Source of the DNA: a virus
Length of the DNA stretch: 26,502 bases
Virus record (IMG/VR): IMGVR_UViG_3300032236_000881
Span: 1-26,502 of that record
Reading direction: 5' to 3' (one strand)
The notes beneath the pieces are model-generated. The model did not search any database, was not told where the DNA came from, and saw only the letters and a list, made by a program, of their open reading frames with translations. A program made the translations under genes and the position numbers. Each line of letters begins with the position of its first letter. Position 1 is the first letter of the stretch. Shown piece after piece: positions 3,674 through 26,429 of the stretch.

Positions 3674-3855
3674 AGTTCGATTCCCATCTCTCGTGCGAGA
3701 CCTGCACCGATTGGGTTGCCGGTCTTGTTGTCAGCGGTAATCTGTGCGACCAGTTCGTCAGCTGCAGTTTTGATGTCTCGCAGTGTGATGAACTTGCCGA
3801 CGTGGTAAGCCACGCCAGCGGTGACGGCTAACGAAAGCCAGAATAATGGATTCAT
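3670..3855 (-). CDS. Small membrane-anchored protein, 61 aa
   Basis: A hydrophobic N-terminal segment (NPLFWLSLAVTAGVAYHVG, residues 2-20) could be a membrane anchor or uncleaved signal. The rest is a soluble helix (RDIKTAADELVAQI) and a short tail. The ATG at 3855 overlaps the WhiB stop (ATGA). Its leader, inside the end of the whiB frame, contains two consecutive GGACAA motifs, a variant of the repeated leader element. Unknown function; typical of small phage membrane proteins. Confidence 0.6.
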   Translation of the reverse strand: MNPLFWLSLAVTAGVAYHVGKFITLRDIKTAADELVAQITADNKTGNPIGAGLAREMGIEL

Positions 3856-4262
3856 TTCTTGTCCTTGTCCTTCTTGTGTTTGTTTGTGTATTTCTGGTAA
3901 GCACCAAGTGTGATGCCCACTTCTTTCAGTGCGTCGTGAAGGTTGAAGCCAATCCCTCGAAGTCGGTTCACTTCACGCGATCCACCTCGCTTGACTCTAC
4001 TTTTGCCCTCCGACATCCTGCGACGTTCTTCAGGTGACGTGCCACCGAAGTATCCTTCGAAATCTTTCGCATCCAGTGCCATCTGTAGACAGTCCTGCTT
4101 GACTGGGCACTTGTTGCAAATCCTCGCGATGATGGGTTCACGTTCGAGTGCTTCGGCCGCATTGACTGGGAAGAAATAGTCTGGGTCTGGAATGTCTAGG
4201 CAGTGTGCGCCTTGCCACTTGTCAGGATTCCCGAACGCAAAGTTGAACGGTTCAATTGCCAT
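3852..4262 (-). CDS. WhiB-family Fe-S transcription factor, 136 aa (first copy)
   Basis: The four cluster ligands are Cys21, Cys49, Cys52 and Cys58 (CNKCPVKQDC), the C...CxxCxxxxxC pattern of WhiB-like proteins. The beta-turn motif is GYFGGTSPEER (70-80), a variant of the usual G(V/I)WGG. A basic region follows (SRVKRGGSREVNRLRG), and the protein continues into a Lys/Asp-rich end. WhiB proteins bind a [4Fe-4S] cluster and usually act through the primary sigma factor. Phage copies such as that of TM4 are known to interfere with host WhiB function. Overlaps the upstream nuclease by 11 bases. Confidence 0.88.
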   Translation of the reverse strand: MAIEPFNFAFGNPDKWQGAHCLDIPDPDYFFPVNAAEALEREPIIARICNKCPVKQDCLQMALDAKDFEGYFGGTSPEERRRMSEGKSRVKRGGSREVNRLRGIGFNLHDALKEVGITLGAYQKYTNKHKKDKDKK

Positions 4263-4599
4263 GACCGGCCTTCTTCAACAATTCGACAGCCTCACCGAGT
4301 GGCATGATGGCCCACCAGTTACCCGTGTTCGCTGAGCCAACTCCGACAGGTTTCACCACAAGGATTCCGACCTGAGCCTTCGAGTTGACTTTCTCAGCTG
4401 CTAACTCTTTGAGCCATGCAGGGATGCTGTATGACTTGTGAGCCTTCACTTCGATGCATACGCCTGGCAGTCCGGCAACGTCACCTTTGTCGTTGACACC
4501 TGCCAGTGCTCGTCTTTCAGCGTGTAGGAATCCTTGCGCGATGAGGTAGTTGACGACTGCGGTTTCGGCTGATGTGCCTTTGGCTTTGTTCTTGCTCAT
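4252..4599 (-). CDS. PD-(D/E)XK nuclease, Holliday-junction-resolvase-like, 115 aa
   Basis: The motif set is KGTSAETAVVNYLIAQGF (Glu12), ERRALAGVNDKGDVAGLPG (Asp40) and CIEVKAH (Glu50, Lys52), the E...D...ExK core of small archaeal-Hjc-like and VRR-related nucleases. The length suits a single-domain resolvase. It may resolve branched replication or recombination intermediates before packaging, in concert with the exonuclease and ssDNA-binding candidate in this operon. The start is the ATG at 4599, overlapping the upstream zinc-ribbon stop (ATGA), not the longer frame to 4680, which has no independent support. Confidence 0.75.
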   Translation of the reverse strand: MSKNKAKGTSAETAVVNYLIAQGFLHAERRALAGVNDKGDVAGLPGVCIEVKAHKSYSIPAWLKELAAEKVNSKAQVGILVVKPVGVGSANTGNWWAIMPLGEAVELLKKAGHGN

Positions 4600-4694
4600 T
4601 TGACGAACCCTGAGCACCAACGGCAAAGCCACACTTTGGCTTTTGGATACCACGCCATCTGACGGCAGCAGTCTCCGCATAACGGATTGTTCAT
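4596..4694 (-). CDS. Zinc-ribbon miniprotein, 32 aa
   Basis: The frame from the ATG at 4694 reads MNNPLCGDCCRQMAWYPKAK and ends VWLCRWCSGFVK. CGDC (Cys6, Cys9) and CRWC (Cys24, Cys27) give a classic zinc-ribbon spacing. Both ends overlap neighbouring genes as ATGA (upstream WhiB at 4691-4694, downstream nuclease at 4596-4599), so the two genes fit together only if this tiny frame is translated. It probably binds zinc and contacts nucleic acid or a partner protein; the target is unknown. Confidence 0.7.
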   Translation of the reverse strand: MNNPLCGDCCRQMAWYPKAKVWLCRWCSGFVK

Positions 4695-5059
4695 TGTCCT
4701 TGCTCCTGTTCTTTCTTGCGCTTGTCCCTGAGTTCTCGTCGTGCTTTTGCTTTCGGATTCATGGAGACGAACAACCTGTCCAGTTCGTACTGTGCATGAA
4801 TGCTTCGTGATTCGATGCCAAGTTCCTTGCGCATTCTCCGACGATCACCGAAAGTTGTGCCACCCCAGATGCCTTCAACTTCGACGTACAACGCGTACGT
4901 CAGGCACGCCTGTAGAACTGGGCACGAGTCACACAAGTCTTTGATTGGTTGAAGATGCTTTGATGTCAACTTTTCACAAGGACTTGGAAAGAAGTGTTCG
5001 AACCCTACTTGTGCACATGCTGCGTCAGAAAGGTCTGGGAACTTGTATGGGTCGGTCAT
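4691..5059 (-). CDS. WhiB-family Fe-S transcription factor, 122 aa (second copy)
   Basis: Cys15, Cys43, Cys46 and Cys52 (CDSCPVLQAC) give the cluster-binding pattern, with an extra Cys28. GIWGGTTFGDRRR (63-75) matches the canonical GxWGG turn followed by the basic DNA-binding segment better than the first copy. The C-terminus is strongly basic (KAKARRELRDKRKKEQEQ). The start is the ATG at 5059, overlapping the previous stop as ATGA. This copy and the 3852-4262 copy differ widely in sequence, so they are old paralogues or separate acquisitions, not a recent duplication. Confidence 0.9.
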   Translation of the reverse strand: MTDPYKFPDLSDAACAQVGFEHFFPSPCEKLTSKHLQPIKDLCDSCPVLQACLTYALYVEVEGIWGGTTFGDRRRMRKELGIESRSIHAQYELDRLFVSMNPKAKARRELRDKRKKEQEQGQ

Positions 5060-5172
5060 GCTGTGACCTGCTGGGGTAGGTGGCGCTCGACATTGAAGGA
5101 CAAGTGCAATGGAGCGCCACCAGGAGCGTTGCAACACTCGTCTTTCATCATACCGAGATAGTTAGACTTCAC
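5056..5172 (-). CDS. Very small hypothetical protein, 38 aa
   Basis: Starts at a GTG (5172) overlapping the preceding stop (GTGA), with GGGGAG three bases upstream. It ends at a TGA overlapping the WhiB ATG (ATGA). The product (MKSNYLGMMKDECCNAPGG then a short tail) has one CC pair. I recognise nothing. The case rests on the fit between the two coupled junctions and the good ribosome-binding site. Confidence 0.5.
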   Translation of the reverse strand: MKSNYLGMMKDECCNAPGGAPLHLSFNVERHLPQQVTA

Positions 5173-18401: not shown

Positions 18402-19088
18402 TTAGTGTTGCGCTTTCCACATAGCGTGGTGACGCTCATCAAGCCAGAACTGCTTGTGATGCGCCAAGATAGCGCCAGTGTGCGCAAAGATAGGGAAGCC
18501 CAGAGCCGTCGCCTTACGACAGAACAGCAAGTCCTCACTGAACCAACGGCCATCAAGAGCGCCATCGAAGAACCAGCACCAGTCAGTCCCTTGGTTCGGA
18601 CTAGCCTTCTCACGCATCGCCTCAAGAACCGAACGATGAACCAGCAGACAGCCAGTCCCTGCGCCGTCAATCTGCGTCACTTGATTCTTCGGGTAATCGT
18701 CAATCGGAAGCATCGCGCCGTCAGCTGTAATGTTGTAAATCGCAGGGACAGGCCGAAGCACTTCGTTGTCGTAGAAAGCCGCGAACACGAGACCGGCAAC
18801 GATAGGTCGGTCATCCTTGTGAGCAGTCTCAACCAGAAGGTCGAAGACTGACAGTGGAAGCGACTGGTCGGAGTCAATCATCAACAACCAGTCAGCGTGA
18901 GAACCATCAAGGAAGTTTTTCACAATCAGGTTGCGAGTTCGAGCCAGAAGGCCCAGCCCTTGCACGCACTGCAGTGAGTCAATCCTCGGTCGACGTTCAC
19001 GCATCAAACCCACAAGGTCGATAGTTAATTGTGTATCAATCAAACCGTCGTGAGGAATAGCGATGCAGACAGTTTCGCGCGACCTCAT
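18402..19088 (-). CDS. GT-A-like glycosyltransferase, 228 aa
   Basis: The key features are an early strand (VCIAIPHDGLIDTQLTIDLVGLMRERRPR), the turn LLARTRNLIVKNFLDGSHADWLLMIDSD with the DxD-type metal motif at Asp72-Ser-Asp74, then GAGTGCLLVHRSV (142-154) and FSEDLLFCRKATALG (Glu185, Asp186), which fits a GT-A family 2-like catalytic domain. It lies between the capsid gene and the fibre. Glycosylation of virion proteins by such enzymes has been reported for some mycobacteriophages, so the fibre or capsid is the likely target, although a host surface target is possible. ATG at 19088 overlaps the miniprotein stop (ATGA). Confidence 0.78.
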   Translation of the reverse strand: MRSRETVCIAIPHDGLIDTQLTIDLVGLMRERRPRIDSLQCVQGLGLLARTRNLIVKNFLDGSHADWLLMIDSDQSLPLSVFDLLVETAHKDDRPIVAGLVFAAFYDNEVLRPVPAIYNITADGAMLPIDDYPKNQVTQIDGAGTGCLLVHRSVLEAMREKASPNQGTDWCWFFDGALDGRWFSEDLLFCRKATALGFPIFAHTGAILAHHKQFWLDERHHAMWKAQH

Positions 19089-19309: not shown

Positions 19310-20656
19310 TTAGTAACCGGAAGGTGTGACCGTACCTGTACCAGTGATGGCAGTGACAGCCTTCGCGAAGCGGTGAGCGAATGCAACATACTCGTATGAC
19401 TGCAGACGGACGCTAAGGTTTGCCGACAGCACGTCTGGGAGTACGCGAGTCTTCGTGCCACCTGAGAACAAGTATGAATCATCAAACTTGCCAACAAGGA
19501 TTGGCGACTGGTTAGTACCAACAGCGTTCTTGAGCGTGGCATCCAAGTAGACCGGAACGCCCATGATTGCACCAGCAAGACCAGCAGCGCCACCAGGCAT
19601 AGCGTTGATGCCCTGAGCGTTGAATGGGCCAGCAGCCGTTGGAACGATGATTGGACGACTCTGACCGTCAACCTGTGCGGTTAGCCAGTACCAAGTCGAA
19701 GGTGACATTACGATGCCAGTGACATCGCGGAAACGGTTGGTGACAACGCCAGAAATGGCCTTGCTCAACGCGCCAATGAAACCAGTCACAGATGGAGTGG
19801 CTTCAGTCCAAGTAGTAACAACACCGTTAGTGCTGTCAGTTCCAAGGTTGGTGTAACCACGAAGACCACCTGAAGTGCCGTCGCCGTTACCTGCAACAGC
19901 AGTGTTCAGCTGCAAAGCCTGGTCTGCAATGAGGTCTCCGAATACGAGACGATCAAGTCCGGCAGCAATCGGTGACTGCTCCAAAAGTTGAATCGACACG
20001 TTGAGGAAACCTGAGATAGTACGAACAGGTGCAGTCACCGTTGCGGTAACAAGGTCACGAGGACTTGTTGGTGCGTATGTGCTCGATGCGTCGGCTGCTT
20101 GGAAGCCAGTACGAGTACCAGTGGTGATTGCAGGGATGTTGATTGAATCTGTTCCTGCAGGAAGTGCCATCGCAGTTGCAAGGTTACGAGTTACAGAAGC
20201 CGCACGAGCGAACTCTGCAAACTCATTGATGAGGTACAAAGGTGGAACGAAATCGCCACCAGAGCCGTCAACACGAGTTGTGTCGCGAGTTTCAACAGCA
20301 ACTTCCTGCTGGTGACGTGCAAGACGTGACCAAGCGTCAGAATCGTTGCGAACATTCGCATTGATCATGTCGCGGTAGAAAGAGTTGTTTGAACCCTTGT
20401 CGTAAGTCATGGCCTCACGGGTAACTACGGCAGAGCCGAAGGTTGGAACATTCGCAGCAGCGCGAACTTCCTTAAGTTCAGCAGTACGAGCCTCTAGTGC
20501 TTCTGCTGTCTTAATCTTGCTGTCGAGATCTGCGATCTCTGCATGACGTGCTTCTGCTGCATCGAGTGCCTCAGTAGTCACTTCACCAGCAAGGAGAGCT
20601 GCAGCATCGGCTGCGGCGGTAGCGCGAGATTCGCGCAAAGAGTCCAACATGGACAT
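19310..20656 (-). CDS. Major capsid protein, HK97 fold, 448 aa
   Basis: The first about 95 residues (RESRATAAADAAALLAGEVTTEALDAAEARHAEIADLDSKIKTAEALEARTAELKEVRAAAN) form a charged, coiled-coil scaffolding-type delta region. The rest is HK97 coat: ALAGNGDGTSGGLRGYTN-type loop, IVMSPSTWYWLTAQ, PFNAQGINAMPGGAAGLAGAIMGVPVYLDATL and the end DVLSANLSVRLQSYEYVAFAHRFAKAVTAITG. The adjacent protease presumably cleaves off the delta region. AAGGAG precedes the ATG at 20656; a second ATG lies at 20650. Confidence 0.92.
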   Translation of the reverse strand: MSMLDSLRESRATAAADAAALLAGEVTTEALDAAEARHAEIADLDSKIKTAEALEARTAELKEVRAAANVPTFGSAVVTREAMTYDKGSNNSFYRDMINANVRNDSDAWSRLARHQQEVAVETRDTTRVDGSGGDFVPPLYLINEFAEFARAASVTRNLATAMALPAGTDSINIPAITTGTRTGFQAADASSTYAPTSPRDLVTATVTAPVRTISGFLNVSIQLLEQSPIAAGLDRLVFGDLIADQALQLNTAVAGNGDGTSGGLRGYTNLGTDSTNGVVTTWTEATPSVTGFIGALSKAISGVVTNRFRDVTGIVMSPSTWYWLTAQVDGQSRPIIVPTAAGPFNAQGINAMPGGAAGLAGAIMGVPVYLDATLKNAVGTNQSPILVGKFDDSYLFSGGTKTRVLPDVLSANLSVRLQSYEYVAFAHRFAKAVTAITGTGTVTPSGY

Positions 20657-20732: not shown

Positions 20733-22625
20733 CTAGAGAGAATCAAGTTTGAACTTCAGCGCCAGTTTGCGCTTGCGAAGTTCGAGGTCGTCATCGGCTG
20801 CATCTTCCGAACGCATACCGACAGACGAAGCGTCATAGGCTGGCCACGTCACAACCGAAACCTCAAACAGGTTCAGGTCGGTTAGTGTGCGAAGACCTTC
20901 CTCACGAGTGTCACCGCCAGGAGCAACACTGAAAGCGAATGACATCTTGTCAACGTCGCCACGAGTAAGAGCCGAAGCCAACTCGGCAGCGCGAGGATTC
21001 GAAGGGTCAAGCGTTGCTTCCATGCGAAGACCGACATTGTCCTCAGACAGAGTCAGAGTGCCACCCTGCGTTGAGGCAAGAGGCAACTGGTCGGTGTCAT
21101 GGTTCACAAGTAAGAACACTGGGTCGCCAGACTTCAATGATCGAGTGAAAGCGCCAGGCGCAATCATTTCACGGAAGTTTAGACCGGTCGCTTCCTTGTT
21201 GAACTGTGCAGCATAGCCACCAATTCGAAGTGAGCCGTCATCGGTAGCAATCGAGCGAACCTCAGCGTTAAAGGTTAGGCGCTCAGCTGAAGCAATAGCA
21301 GACTTGCGTTCCTGCAAATCGTGAGACATCGAGCGAGGCTCAAACGGAACAACAAGGCTCGGGTCTTCAAACTTCGTGGCCATCTTGTCGTAGTAGTCAG
21401 ACACCTTCGCCTTAATCTTCGCAACATCCTCTGCAGGAATGTCAACACCACCGCGTGAACCATTCAGTACCGCAGCAACAGCAAAGATTCCACGAGGAAT
21501 CGCAGTCAAAGTTCCGCCAATGATGTCGGCGAACTGCAACTTGTAGCCACCAAACTGTCCCTTCTTGTCAGGGTTGACGTAGAAGAACGCTTGACCATAC
21601 TTGTTCCAGTCACCATTCGCCCAGTCACGGACACGCTTGTCAGCATCCGAAGCGCTCCACGCGTAGTCGCGTGAACCAATCGGCAAATCCATCGAACCTG
21701 AAGCAGCACGCATCATCGGGTAAGCCTCATCCATCATCGGCATGGATTCCTCAGCCATGTCATCAAGATCATTGCCCTGAGCATCCACCGGGTCAGGAGA
21801 AGGCTGAGTGACTTCCTCACCAAGCGAAGCAGTCAATTGCCACTTGTAGAACTGCTGGTCGTCAATAGCGCCAGCAATGAAGTTAGCGATACCCTGCTGG
21901 CCATAAGCGGTTGCACAATCAAACACGTCTGAAAGTTCATCAAGGAAGATGTCGTTCGCTGTCAGCAAATCGCGTGCAAGACTCATCGGGTCTTGACCAG
22001 GAGTCGCGTCCTGCAAGTATCCGAGCTGCATGAACTCAGCCAGACGGAACGGAGCAACCGAACCAATCTTGCGAAGGTTCTCCGCGATCGGGTCAATCAA
22101 CTCGTAGGCGGTCTCATAAATCTTCTGGAACAGTTTGTGGTATTCGCTGAAGTCAGCGCCCTTCACGTTCCAGTGTGCACCATGAGCGCGGAAGTAGAAC
22201 TGAACCGCAGTTCCAAGCAACTCTCGCAGTTCCTCAACCAAGTCAGGAACTGTTGCCGAATCTCTTTTCTCCATTGTTTCTCCAATGATTATTGCCGACC
22301 GAGCAGCCATTTTGTCGCGAATCGAACTCGCCCAAGTGAACCCTGCATCCCCACCCCAAGCAGACCAAGCCACGCGGCCAGCACTCGGGAAACCATCTTC
22401 ACCAGCATTGAAGCCAGTTGCTTTCTTATCGACCTCGTGACGCTTGAAGAACGAATACATTCTGAAGATCACATCGAGGGACACAGGCTTACCTGCAGCC
22501 AAATCGCTCGCACGCTTCCGGCCAGTGTCAGTGAACCCTGAGCCAGCCTTACCGTCAGCAAGCCACTTCAATGCACGAGAAGCCTCATCGCGGACACCCT
22601 GCGGAGGTCGGAAAGTTTCAGCCAT
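20733..22625 (-). CDS. Dps/ferritin-like domain fused to HK97 prohead protease, 630 aa
   Basis: Residues 1-106 form a domain (LKWLADGKAGSGFTDTGRKRAS, FPSAGRVAWSAWGGDAG) known from some head polyproteins. Residues about 127-270 read like Dps: AHGAHWNVKG (His151), His163, Asp178 and Glu182 have the spacing of E. coli Dps H51, H63, D78 and E82, although the equivalent of D67 is Gln167. A linker and a further domain (about 318-420, AWSASDADKRVRDWANGDWNKYGQAFFYV) follow. Residues 445-605 are a prohead protease: NHD with His509, and KMSFAF with Ser562. ATG overlaps the portal stop (TAATG). Confidence 0.85.
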   Translation of the reverse strand: MAETFRPPQGVRDEASRALKWLADGKAGSGFTDTGRKRASDLAAGKPVSLDVIFRMYSFFKRHEVDKKATGFNAGEDGFPSAGRVAWSAWGGDAGFTWASSIRDKMAARSAIIIGETMEKRDSATVPDLVEELRELLGTAVQFYFRAHGAHWNVKGADFSEYHKLFQKIYETAYELIDPIAENLRKIGSVAPFRLAEFMQLGYLQDATPGQDPMSLARDLLTANDIFLDELSDVFDCATAYGQQGIANFIAGAIDDQQFYKWQLTASLGEEVTQPSPDPVDAQGNDLDDMAEESMPMMDEAYPMMRAASGSMDLPIGSRDYAWSASDADKRVRDWANGDWNKYGQAFFYVNPDKKGQFGGYKLQFADIIGGTLTAIPRGIFAVAAVLNGSRGGVDIPAEDVAKIKAKVSDYYDKMATKFEDPSLVVPFEPRSMSHDLQERKSAIASAERLTFNAEVRSIATDDGSLRIGGYAAQFNKEATGLNFREMIAPGAFTRSLKSGDPVFLLVNHDTDQLPLASTQGGTLTLSEDNVGLRMEATLDPSNPRAAELASALTRGDVDKMSFAFSVAPGGDTREEGLRTLTDLNLFEVSVVTWPAYDASSVGMRSEDAADDDLELRKRKLALKFKLDSL

Positions 22626-23848
22626 TAGTCCAAGACTCCCATGACAGGTGCACTCGGGTCAGCATCCTCACCCAGCGAGGACAAGTCACCGCCAGCAACC
22701 ACGTTACCCATGAGAGCCTGATTGAACGAATCGCCGCCATCGTAAGGTTCACGACCAATGATTTGGCGAGCCTCATTCGGAGTTGAAACACCCTTGTCGA
22801 TGTAAAGACCAGCAACACGAGCTTGAGTCAACGAATCCGTGCGAAGTAGCGAAGCGAAGTCGAACACGACATCCTGACCGGTAGGCAGAAGTTCAGAAAG
22901 CGCAGTTTCAAGACGGCGAACCCAAGGGGTCAACGTGTGCGTCAGGAAGTTCAAGTTCGCCTGTTCAACATTCTGGTAAGTCTGGTTATCGCCAGTAACA
23001 CCCATAAGGTGACCGGGGATGCGGTAGATACGAGCAATGTCACGAATCAACTGCTCGCGAGTAGCAATCATTTCCATGTCAGCTGCGCTGGTCGTGATAG
23101 GCGTGAACTTCAGACCATCAGACAAGACCGCTGGACGGCGACGGCGACGGTGAGTCGCTTCCCACGTCCCCTGAATTGTGCGTGCCTGGTCGAGCGTCAA
23201 CTTCTGGTCAGTGCTCAACACGCCAGAAGGAGTAGCGCCTTCACCGTAGAACTGCGACAGGTGACGATCCATAGCGAGCGACAAACCGACAAGGGTTCGA
23301 GATTGAATCAAAGGTGACACACCAACCAGCGATTGCGGTGGCGTGAACCAACGAATGTGCATCAACGAGTCATTCGCCATCTCATTACCGAGATGCAAAT
23401 ACACGCGACCAATCTGGTCACCAGTCGGCAACACCTGCATCTGGTACGGATGCAACGGCACTAGACCAATCAGATTCCCACGAGTGTCCACATCCTTGTG
23501 AATGTACGCATTGCCATGCAAGACAAGCGAAGCCATCACCTGATGAATGAACTCGAACGTGTTCGTTCCCGAAATAATGTCAGGCTGAGCCAACGCAGTC
23601 GGCAACGGAACATTCTTCCGCTGACCATCAACCACCTCGTAACAACGAAGCGGAAGCGAAGCCACCGAATCACACAGCAAAGTGACAGCAGACATGACAG
23701 CCGAAACGCCAAGAGCCGTCCACTCATCAACACGCTCACCAGCACTCGAAGTGACCTGAGTCTGACCATACAGCTGAGACAGCGGAGCAACATAGTTGTT
23801 GAACTGTGGGTAACGGCCAACAACCGCAGACCGGCGAAGAATACTCAT
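22625..23848 (-). CDS. Portal protein, HK97 family, 407 aa
   Basis: The features of HK97-type portals are clear: AVMSAVTLLCDSVASLPLRCYEVVDG (about 50-75), TNTFEFIHQVMASLVLHGNAYIHKD, GVSPLIQSRTLVGLSLAMDRHLSQFYGEGATPSGVLSTDQKL and IRDIARIYRIPGHLMGVTGDNQTYQNVEQANLNFLTHTLTPWVRRLETALS. The C-terminus (NEARQIIGREPYDGGD) is also standard. It forms the dodecameric ring at one capsid vertex through which DNA enters. ATG at 23848 overlaps the stop of the small membrane protein (ATGA). Confidence 0.93.
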   Translation of the reverse strand: MSILRRSAVVGRYPQFNNYVAPLSQLYGQTQVTSSAGERVDEWTALGVSAVMSAVTLLCDSVASLPLRCYEVVDGQRKNVPLPTALAQPDIISGTNTFEFIHQVMASLVLHGNAYIHKDVDTRGNLIGLVPLHPYQMQVLPTGDQIGRVYLHLGNEMANDSLMHIRWFTPPQSLVGVSPLIQSRTLVGLSLAMDRHLSQFYGEGATPSGVLSTDQKLTLDQARTIQGTWEATHRRRRRPAVLSDGLKFTPITTSAADMEMIATREQLIRDIARIYRIPGHLMGVTGDNQTYQNVEQANLNFLTHTLTPWVRRLETALSELLPTGQDVVFDFASLLRTDSLTQARVAGLYIDKGVSTPNEARQIIGREPYDGGDSFNQALMGNVVAGGDLSSLGEDADPSAPVMGVLD

Positions 23849-23994
23849 TCGTTACCTGCTAAATACGAGAAGACAAGAGCAAAGATGCCACCAACAATAA
23901 GACCGAAATCGACACCAAAATGAAGACTGATTCCTGCACAGACTGAGCCAGCGCCAGCAATCTCAACCGCTGTCGTGATGCGTTCACGATTCAT
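23845..23994 (-). CDS. Small membrane protein between terminase and portal, 49 aa
   Basis: The ATG at 23994 lies within the last codons of the terminase gene, and the TGA at 23847-23845 overlaps the portal ATG (ATGA). The product (MNRERITTAVEIAGAGSVCA, then GISLHFGVDFGLIVGGIFALVFSYLAGNE) has one weak and one strong hydrophobic segment and so is a membrane peptide. The frame fills an otherwise gene-free 135 bases. I recognise no family. It may be a moron or a lysis or exclusion factor. Confidence 0.65.
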   Translation of the reverse strand: MNRERITTAVEIAGAGSVCAGISLHFGVDFGLIVGGIFALVFSYLAGNE

Positions 23995-25546
23995 CAAACT
24001 CACCCATTCCGTCTAGATCATCAAGGTCAAAAATCATTGGCATTCCGCCACCCTGCCCACTCCACCAGACAGCACGCTCGAGGCCCATCACCGCAGCAAC
24101 CGCCAAGTCAATCCGTCGAGAAGAGTTCTTCGACTCCTTCGACAAGCGAGAACCGCGTGAATCCACTCTAAGCGTCGCATTGCCCACATGACGAGCAAAC
24201 ATCGGGTCGCCGTCATGAGTCATCGACTTATTCATCACGGCCTCGAACAGGCGTGTGGTGGCTGGAGTCATGCGTGAAGCGCTCTGAGGGAACAACGTCA
24301 CAGGTAGATTCTCATCCTCAAGAATCTGGAAAGTACGCGCCCAGCGATAAGGGTCGCAAGCAATCTCCTCAACCTGCCACTTCAAACAAGCATCACGAAT
24401 CGACTGCTCAACATCCATCACAGGAACTTGCCAGTCCGCAGACTCCCCGTCAGGCTTCTCCCACGCCTCAACCACAAACGCGTGAGGCACATCCTCAACC
24501 GTCACACCAACAATCGCAGTGCAGTCACCATTGAACGAACCATCGAACGCCAGAACAACAGCAGTTCCAGGCTCAACCGTACGGTCAGAAGCCACAGCAT
24601 CCCAAGCGCCAGCCGGCAACCAAGTGTCCGAAGTAGACATCCACTGATTACAGCGCTTAGTTCGAAACTCAGACTCAGGCGTTCGGTTAATCACCGACTC
24701 GAAATCTGAGGCGGCAACAATGTCATCAAAGCCCGGATTCGCGTCACGCCACGTCTTCGGGTCACGATGGTCAGACTCAGCTGACGCTTCCCACCACGAG
24801 AAGAAGAACGACGGGTCAGTGATCTCGCCCGAAGCAACCTTCTGGCCGTACTGATAAAGCCCATAACACAGGGAATCCTTACCGCTGGAATCAGTCTTGA
24901 CACCTGCGGTTGTGATGCCCACCATCATTGGTTCTTTGCGAGCGCCCTGAGCAAGGCTCATGACATCCCACAGTTCACGGTTAGGTTGGGCGTGAACCTC
25001 ATCGAAGATTGTCAGCGTTGGGCTGAGACCTTCCTTGGTGAAACTTTCAGACGATAGAGCGCGGTAAGTCGTGCCACTCTTCGGGTTGTAAATCGTATCT
25101 CGGAACACCTGCAAGAAATCCGACAGTTCAGGCTGGAGACGAATCATCTCCTTGACAGTGCCAAACACAATCTTTGCCTGATCGCGGTCAGCGGCGCAAG
25201 AATAAATCTCACCGCCAGAAGGGCCGAGAACTAAATGCTCAAGGGCAATCGAGGCAGCCCAAGCAGACTTGCCATTCTTTCGAGGTAGACCTATCAGAGC
25301 CGTTCGGTGGCGTAATGTGCCATCAGACTTGAGCGCAAACAGTTGACGAGTCAATTCCTTCTGCCAAGGTCTGAACACCATCGGTGAACCGGCATCGCCA
25401 GCAATCGACTCCTTCGTAATCTTGCACAGCGCCTCAGCGAAGTCGACAACTTCCTCACCGCGAGAACGCTTCAAGTCGGCAGGAGGCACAGGAGTCAACC
25501 ATCGAGGTGGCCACGCCTGAATCTTGCTTCTCCCCTGAGCCGCCAT
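23984..25546 (-). CDS. Large terminase, 520 aa
   Basis: The ATPase has Walker A GLPRKNGKSA (86-95), Walker B LTIFDE (178-183) and coupling motif ITTAG (211-215); the nuclease has AFDGS (Asp335), CDPY (Asp398) and IDLAVAAVMGLE (Asp480). This corresponds to the Terminase_1-type family. It cuts and pumps DNA into the prohead. I start it at the ATG at 25546, which overlaps the kinase stop (TGATG) and has GGGGGA upstream. A TTG at 25582 would add 12 residues and looks weak. Confidence 0.95.
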   Translation of the reverse strand: MAAQGRSKIQAWPPRWLTPVPPADLKRSRGEEVVDFAEALCKITKESIAGDAGSPMVFRPWQKELTRQLFALKSDGTLRHRTALIGLPRKNGKSAWAASIALEHLVLGPSGGEIYSCAADRDQAKIVFGTVKEMIRLQPELSDFLQVFRDTIYNPKSGTTYRALSSESFTKEGLSPTLTIFDEVHAQPNRELWDVMSLAQGARKEPMMVGITTAGVKTDSSGKDSLCYGLYQYGQKVASGEITDPSFFFSWWEASAESDHRDPKTWRDANPGFDDIVAASDFESVINRTPESEFRTKRCNQWMSTSDTWLPAGAWDAVASDRTVEPGTAVVLAFDGSFNGDCTAIVGVTVEDVPHAFVVEAWEKPDGESADWQVPVMDVEQSIRDACLKWQVEEIACDPYRWARTFQILEDENLPVTLFPQSASRMTPATTRLFEAVMNKSMTHDGDPMFARHVGNATLRVDSRGSRLSKESKNSSRRIDLAVAAVMGLERAVWWSGQGGGMPMIFDLDDLDGMGEFDES

Positions 25547-25983
25547 CAGTTCCCCCGAACGATTGTTTCGATACTTCCCCAAGGTTCAAGGTGGAGAGTT
25601 CGAAGTGATTTGTTCAAGTCTTGATGATACTTGGACACAATCGACTTTGGCACTGGTGCAGTTCTGTAATCCTGCGCCTTGTGAAGAAGGAGCAGGGAAG
25701 TCTTAAAGACAATCAGTCGAGTTTCAGCGCCAGCCTCGGTCGCGAGCTGAAGCCAGAAGGCGCGATGTCGACGGTCAATGTGAGTTCCGTCAGCGATAAC
25801 GTCAAGGCCACCATGAGCGGCAACCTCAGCACGACGGCGCAACTGGTTCATGAAGATGTTCGAATCCAAAGATCGGTCAGCCCGAAGAGGTTCAGTGCTG
25901 GCGATGTGTTCCTCGCCTGTGGAATTACGAGCAAGCCACGTCGACTTCCCTGCGCCAGGAGCGCCCATCAAGACCGTAATCAT
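25546..25983 (-). CDS. P-loop polynucleotide-kinase-like protein, 145 aa
   Basis: GAPGAGKST (residues 7-15) is a textbook Walker A. DVIADGTHIDRRHRAFWLQLATEAGAETRLIVFKTS continues with the acceptor and lid pattern of AAA_33-type kinases, the group of T4 polynucleotide kinase and zeta-toxin relatives. It is coupled at both ends (ATGA with small terminase, TGATG with large terminase), so it is translated together with the packaging motor. Possible roles are end repair, DNA or RNA 5'-phosphorylation, or an inserted moron. The substrate cannot be deduced. Confidence 0.75.
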   Translation of the reverse strand: MITVLMGAPGAGKSTWLARNSTGEEHIASTEPLRADRSLDSNIFMNQLRRRAEVAAHGGLDVIADGTHIDRRHRAFWLQLATEAGAETRLIVFKTSLLLLHKAQDYRTAPVPKSIVSKYHQDLNKSLRTLHLEPWGSIETIVRGN

Positions 25984-26429
25984 TTCGCCTGACGCTTGGC
26001 AATCAAGTTGTCCAGTGCGCTGGCACGTTTAACCTCAGCCACGCCAAGGCGAGAACGTGAAGTCGGATCGAAGCCAAGACTGGCAAGCGCATCAGACAGC
26101 GACTTGGCCAAAGCGACAACCGCACGAGCGTCAGCAGGTTCAGTTGTTGCCCGATACCTAGCGCGAGCAATGGACAAGTCGTCAGCTGCGCGACAAGCGT
26201 TCTCAATCGCCGACAAGTCAGAATCTGGTGAAAGCCAAGTGATCGCCATCGACCAGGCACGAGACCACAGTTCAAGGCCATCCTTGCCCAAATCCGCTGG
26301 AGCGTCAGGAATCGTGATGGCCATCGGCAAAGTTTGAACAACCGCCAACTCCGGAAGTTTACGTCGTCCAGGATTCCCCTGAGCACGCTTCAATTCCGCT
26401 GGTTTTGGAGGTCGACCGTTGGTTGCCAT
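25980..26429 (-). CDS. Small terminase subunit, P27 family, 149 aa
   Basis: The opening NGRPPKPAELKRAQGNPGRRKLPE is the signature of P27-type small terminases. The rest is a helical bundle (DLGKDGLELWSRAWSMAITWL, IENACRAADDLSIARARYRATTEP, ALAKSLSDALASLGFDPTSRSRLGVAEVKRASALDNLIAKR). It would recognise the packaging site and recruit the large subunit. It is the rightmost gene; the 57 bases upstream (26430-26486) hold only AGGACA as an RBS and no clear promoter. Confidence 0.92.
   Translation of the reverse strand: MATNGRPPKPAELKRAQGNPGRRKLPELAVVQTLPMAITIPDAPADLGKDGLELWSRAWSMAITWLSPDSDLSAIENACRAADDLSIARARYRATTEPADARAVVALAKSLSDALASLGFDPTSRSRLGVAEVKRASALDNLIAKRQAK

Follow-up and report, generated by a model that had tools for sequence, protein, structure and literature searches.

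The 26.5 kb virus record analysed here (the window) carries, at 20733..22625 on its minus strand, an open reading frame that runs from ATG to stop without an internal stop codon and encodes a 630-aa prohead protease polyprotein with an internal Dps domain. The gene sits between the portal and major capsid protein (MCP) genes, as HK97-type proteases do; the portal gene (22625..23848, minus strand; PF04860, E=1.8e-75) lies immediately upstream, its stop codon overlapping the polyprotein ATG (TAATG), and the MCP gene (19310..20656, minus strand; PF05065, E=4.9e-16; PHROG 2263) lies immediately downstream. The TerL gene was located by Pfam search at 23984-25582 and the TerS gene, with a PF23931 score just below the cut-off, at 25980-26429, while head-tail adaptor and tail genes lie downstream of the head genes. 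An AAA/polynucleotide-kinase-like ORF (25546-25983) is found between the small and large terminase genes, and a glycosyltransferase-like gene (PHROG 34859; 18402-19088) lies within the head region, on the downstream side of the capsid gene. Elsewhere, two WhiB-like regulators (3852-4262 and 4691-5137) flank a RusA-like resolvase gene (4252-4680). As the WhiB family is actinobacterial, these two genes suggest that the host of this phage is probably an actinobacterium. Judging from IMG dataset numbers, the relatives are presumably largely from freshwater.

Module organization of the polyprotein

The N-terminal module A comprises residues 1-108 (22302..22625, minus strand; AF2 pLDDT mostly 71-91), of which residues 6-104 match PHROG 2859, a family of unknown function, in a PHROG profile search (E=1.8e-38). 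It is followed by the Dps/ferritin-like domain at residues 129-270 (21816..22241, minus strand), recognized by Pfam, PHROG and fold, and by module C at residues 313-432 (21330..21689, minus strand; pLDDT mostly >75), which is without a Pfam or PHROG name. The HK97-type S78 prohead protease domain occupies residues 453-608 (20802..21269, minus strand), with residues 454-608 matching Peptidase_S78 (PF04586; E=1.2e-39, 136.5 bits vs a cut-off of 21) and a further match to TIGR01543 (E=3e-31, 108.5 bits vs a cut-off of 59). Its catalytic residues, His509 (codon 21099-21101, minus strand) and Ser562 (codon 20940-20942, minus strand), are invariant among 49 aligned sequences. By these profiles the protease part is a complete HK97-type S78 domain, with cleavage of the capsid protein and of the polyprotein itself predicted. 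The profile matches and the uninterrupted 630-aa frame bear out the original prediction, made from the DNA alone, that a protease with His509 and Ser562 shares a frame with the Dps part; module A, the unnamed domain at about 313-432 and the probable internal starts described below lie in that same frame and go beyond what it had proposed. In the full-length AF2 model, confidence between domains is poor (pTM 0.32) and the protease part is of low confidence, so that the domains cannot be placed relative to one another.

Module A is likewise N-terminal in Roseobacter phage protease-capsid fusions. In Roseobacter phage CRP-811 (L082, 3986-6436), module A, Hva1_TUDOR, an S78 protease and a major capsid domain are joined in a single protein of 816 aa whose annotation names only the major capsid protein. 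In the Actinomycetia phage DSL-LC01 (L083, 3006-5569), a gene named 'high potential iron-sulfur protein' directly precedes a module-A gene named 'capsid maturation protease', and Pfam backs neither name.

A Dps fold with a conserved four-ligand site

The claim of a Dps/ferritin-like domain held far above chance in every comparison. Residues 131-269 match Ferritin PF00210 (E=6.1e-13, 49.3 bits vs a gathering score of 24.5), residues 128-269 match the phage Dps-type family PHROG 3636 (E=4.1e-18), and the closest solved sequences in a PDB phmmer search are H. cinaedi CAIP, B. burgdorferi NapA and V. cholerae Dps, at E about 5e-14 to 7e-14. An AlphaFold model of the domain, built from the window and 48 relatives (mean pLDDT 94.1, pTM 0.89), is a four-helix bundle whose B-C loop holds a short BC helix, its helices at 9-33, 39-66, 75-81, 93-120 and 124-147 following the A, B, BC, C, D pattern. 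Dps chains align to this model with Z of 20-22 and rmsd of 1.4-3.3 over 142-154 residues (VIA-align), and the Dps region of the full-length model matches HP-NAP with a target TM of 0.92. Judged on sequence profiles and predicted structure, this is a true Dps-fold module inside a prohead-protease polyprotein.

The original prediction had assigned His151, His163, Asp178 and Glu182 to the E. coli Dps ferroxidase residues H51, H63, D78 and E82, and Gln167 to D67. All five occupy those positions, in an AHWNVKG context, with an offset to E. coli numbering of exactly 100; alignments to Dps proteins were also used. The codons lie on the minus strand at 22173..22175 (His151), 22137..22139 (His163), 22125..22127 (Gln167), 22092..22094 (Asp178) and 22080..22082 (Glu182). 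Absence of a ferritin fold, or loss of the four residues in homologues, would have spoken against the assignment; the predicted structure has the fold, and no such homologue was seen, all four residues being invariant across 97 distinct fused domains. With 35 of 141 core sites invariant in this set, the chance that four given sites are all invariant is about 0.003, kinship ignored. This constancy is accompanied by synonymous turnover, most evenly at His151 (CAT 52, CAC 52) and also at Asp178 (GAT 61, GAC 43) and Glu182 (GAG 85, GAA 19), with His163 encoded by CAC in 102 cases and CAT in two. Median pairwise dN/dS is 0.088 for the Dps domain, 0.109 for module A and 0.161 for the protease; by this measure, purifying selection is stronger on the Dps domain than on the protease, and the site of two His, one Asp and one Glu is conserved at the sequence level.

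The fifth position behaves differently. Across the same 97 domains, residue 167 is Q, L, N, A, G, R, K or M and never D or E, and the acidic fifth ligand of E. coli (D67) is thus absent throughout the fusions. Since Gln also stands at this position, by alignment, in two solved Dps proteins (2pyb and 5lbh), Gln167 alone does not remove the domain from the Dps family; given the loss of the fifth ligand, iron oxidation may nonetheless be weak or absent. The domain has a net charge of -11 in the window and of -10 to -17 across the family, and both of its ends are linked to other modules, leaving no free basic tail of the kind with which some Dps proteins bind DNA. On account of this charge and the missing tail, direct DNA binding by the Dps domain appears unlikely, and its acidic core resembles Dps proteins that do not bind DNA. 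The mini-ferritins of the Dps/NapA type (H. cinaedi CAIP, 5lbh; B. burgdorferi NapA, 2pyb; V. cholerae Dps, 3iq1; L. innocua Dps) share with the fusion the monomer with its BC helix and the equivalents of His51, His63, Asp78 and Glu82. Unlike them, the fusion's Dps domain is embedded in a viral protease polyprotein, has no free N- or C-terminal tail and never has an acidic fifth ligand.

Related phages and the alternative module

In IMG/VR, 181 relatives were retrieved with the whole protein as query and 263 with the Dps domain, and the best 80 of each were kept. The same fusion occurs in about a hundred related phages, the source of the 97 distinct fused domains. More than 1 kb of upstream DNA is available for 87 fusion loci, and in every one of them the portal gene is directly upstream; the MCP gene is downstream in 92 of 105. 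As assigned with module HMMs, the commonest architecture is A-Dps-C-Tudor-protease (58 complete ORFs), and modules A, C and Tudor are each optional among the relatives; the C and Tudor labels are approximate, since some of the Tudor columns are also covered by the C model. In locus L041 the Tudor module is Hva1_TUDOR (PF11160).

Because the first scan could favour Dps, we also scanned with the protease alone. The 80 loci recovered comprised 54 with Dps, 18 with an alternative module and eight that were cut, with none carrying both modules or neither. Likewise, in a protease tree of 117 rows, from which N-terminally cut rows with neither module were omitted, the slot holds Dps in 101 and the alternative module in 16, never both or neither. 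The occupant changes at least six times on this quick tree, of which well-supported branches force only two changes. The alternative module (L102, L103, L108, L109, L113, L115, L117, L119, L121 and L129) is helical, about 60 aa long with an acidic tail, and has the motif ADASIDAAQ ... QAYYLxxAADxALDxVIxxLG; it takes the place of Dps, with module A or the N-terminus on one side and the following module on the other. It has no Pfam name and no match in a phage collection of 50,697 records. No Dps gene was found elsewhere in four alternative-module contigs (17.6-31.8 kb), from which we conclude that this head type can do without metal handling. In 15 Dps-positive records searched, no separate Dps gene was found either.

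Among the matches listed from the same collection of 50,697 phage records, the fusion was not seen; whole-protein matches fell on the protease, N-terminal matches on module A, and Dps matches on standalone genes or unannotated records. The best Dps match, a fecal contig (L081), was set aside, its Dps being standalone and not fused. A scan of genome contigs gave two loci only. One (L177), on a 4.7 kb contig of a betaproteobacterial MAG, is probably a mis-binned phage. The other (L178), from an Actinomycetota MAG, is a distant fusion with a Dps domain 48% identical; PF00210 occurs in 16 of 40 genomes of that MAG's order, which is uninformative on need. This fusion (L178:3542-5257) has an extra Cys-rich stretch (CASCCFF...CAKWDAGCDPEGYC) between module A and Dps, which looks iron-sulfur-like by eye and has no Pfam match.

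Several known systems overlap with parts of this protein. HK97-family prohead proteases (PF04586, TIGR01543, PHROG 80) share the complete S78 domain and the position between portal and capsid genes, and the protease is about 40% identical to those of isolated phages; in contrast to them, the fusion adds the N-terminal modules A, Dps and C, and many relatives add Hva1_TUDOR (PF11160). Standalone Dps or ferritin genes of phages are already known (PMC8008677, PMC6669764, PMC6802176, PMC10892097). Those of Proteus phage Privateer, Lactobacillus phage Semele and gut Gratiaviridae (PHROG 3636) likewise place a Dps domain in a tailed phage, but as a separate gene, among DNA-metabolism genes in the two cases checked (Privateer and L. 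plantarum phages), whereas the Dps domain of the fusion is part of a head protein. In BFVD, which is built on UniProt, eight uncultured-phage proteins of 290-763 aa match the Dps domain; the name is prohead protease for three of them and Dps or ferritin for the rest. Four UniProt entries from uncultured Caudovirales phages (A0A6J5RFH1, A0A6J7WPK9, A0A6J7WIS1 and A0A6J5N5R9; 432-763 aa) are 41-46% identical over the Dps domain and bear the names 'prohead protease', 'DNA-binding protein Dps' and 'Ferritin/DPS protein domain containing protein'. Judged on the Dps domain and these names, they are most likely the same fusion, which has therefore very probably already been deposited under piecemeal names. 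We found no paper on a prohead, capsid or head maturation protease fused to Dps or ferritin among the open-licence PMC papers searched, in keeping with the earlier statement that no well-described example was known. Both families are known, and what is new is the domain architecture that combines them.

Probable internal starts and a proposed role of the Dps module

In most relatives, a Met codon at the boundary between module A and Dps follows a strong Shine-Dalgarno sequence, such as AAGGAGGATGCA-ATG or GAGGAGGGTGAC-ATG, which is kept while the peptide encoded there differs (SEEGD, SKEDA, YKENN, IGET). Measured against shuffles that preserve protein and codon usage, Shine-Dalgarno strength was -8.1 vs -5.1 kcal/mol before Dps (32 distinct heptapeptides, p=7e-7) and -6.6 vs -3.7 kcal/mol before the protease (52 distinct heptapeptides, p=2e-8), both p values being made optimistic by kinship. 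In control regions inside domains it was weaker than expected, and before the alternative module such starts were not enriched. This pattern suggests that internal Met codons give nested co-terminal products. The window has a probable start of this kind at the Dps module boundary (GGAG, a 5-nt spacer and the ATG of Met118; 22272..22283, minus strand), which would yield a 513-aa Dps-to-protease product and which scores -6.4 kcal/mol, next to -6.8 for the gene start. The window thus probably makes the full-length and the Met118 products. A protease-only product is likely in relatives; the corresponding candidate in the window, Met433, is too weak at -1.9 kcal/mol to be proposed as a start, the pre-protease start being supported in relatives only.

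We tentatively favour a reading in which the polyprotein serves head morphogenesis in a small tailed phage that infects Actinobacteria and is known only from metagenome DNA. Its Dps module would organize the protease in the prohead and then leave in the capsid a metal-binding cage that limits radical damage. The polyprotein and shorter co-terminal forms from internal Met codons would enter the prohead with the capsid protein. Ligands of known Dps proteins are contributed by two subunits, and the Dps modules would likewise pair, probably assembling into 12-mers by which the protease is brought together within the shell. Self-cleavage of the linkers would then free a metal-binding cage which, too large for the shell pores, would stay beside the packaged DNA, bind iron or another metal and limit radical damage, protecting by metal uptake and not by DNA binding. 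We infer the assembly role from the slot being always filled and the metal role from the invariance of the ligands.

Close behind this stands a purely structural explanation, possible if somewhat unlikely, in which the Dps fold is only an oligomerization or scaffold module of the protease precursor and any metal bound at the site does no more than staple the dimer together. In its favour are the constant filling of the slot, in which a small helical module unrelated to Dps can stand in, the lost fifth ligand and an acidic core without a DNA-binding tail. Against it, four ligands that stay invariant through codon turnover, next to a fifth that drifts, are what a working metal site would show. 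Alternatively, the module could act in the infected cell before packaging, with the polyprotein or an internally started product acting as a Dps in the cytoplasm to bring down iron and radical levels. This is how standalone Dps and ferritin genes of phages have been read (PMC8008677, PMC6802176), and a probable internal start does precede the Dps module. Even that product, however, would still be attached to the protease, and its coding sequence lies with the head genes, and the 15 Dps-positive records searched have no separate Dps gene, making this account rather doubtful. Least likely of the functional readings, and very improbable, is that Dps is packed as cargo and leaves with the DNA for the next host, or that it carries iron by which the phage exploits host iron uptake (Ferrojan-type); a tail tube should not let through a folded 12-mer of Dps, which measures about 9 nm. 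The same idea was proposed for a Vi01-like phage in which a ferritin-like protein was found by mass spectrometry, but the one host tested showed no dependence on the pathway (PMC10892097). That the module is a captured bacterial dps gene, decaying and tolerated in frame, could accommodate the lost ligand and the slot swaps, but is already contradicted by a dN/dS of 0.09, below that of the protease, and by the many invariant core sites, and can hardly be entertained.

A bolder form of the preferred reading, in which assembly and metal uptake are combined in the capsid, is unlikely but worth stating. The head would be assembled around Dps assemblies brought by its own protease in several nested lengths from internal starts, and the resulting virion-internal compartment would scavenge metal and shield the genome from radicals, a counterpart in phages to encapsulin-ferritin compartments.

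Encapsulins, which have a common origin with HK97-fold capsids, carry ferritin-like cargo; a ferritin-like module within a phage's own head protease would be a viral parallel to them. The probable internal starts hint at a way in which several assembly proteins may come from a single head gene. Close relatives that differ in whether this slot holds the Dps module provide a natural comparison, and the fusion opens a direct way to ask whether metal or radical damage is managed by phages inside the virion.
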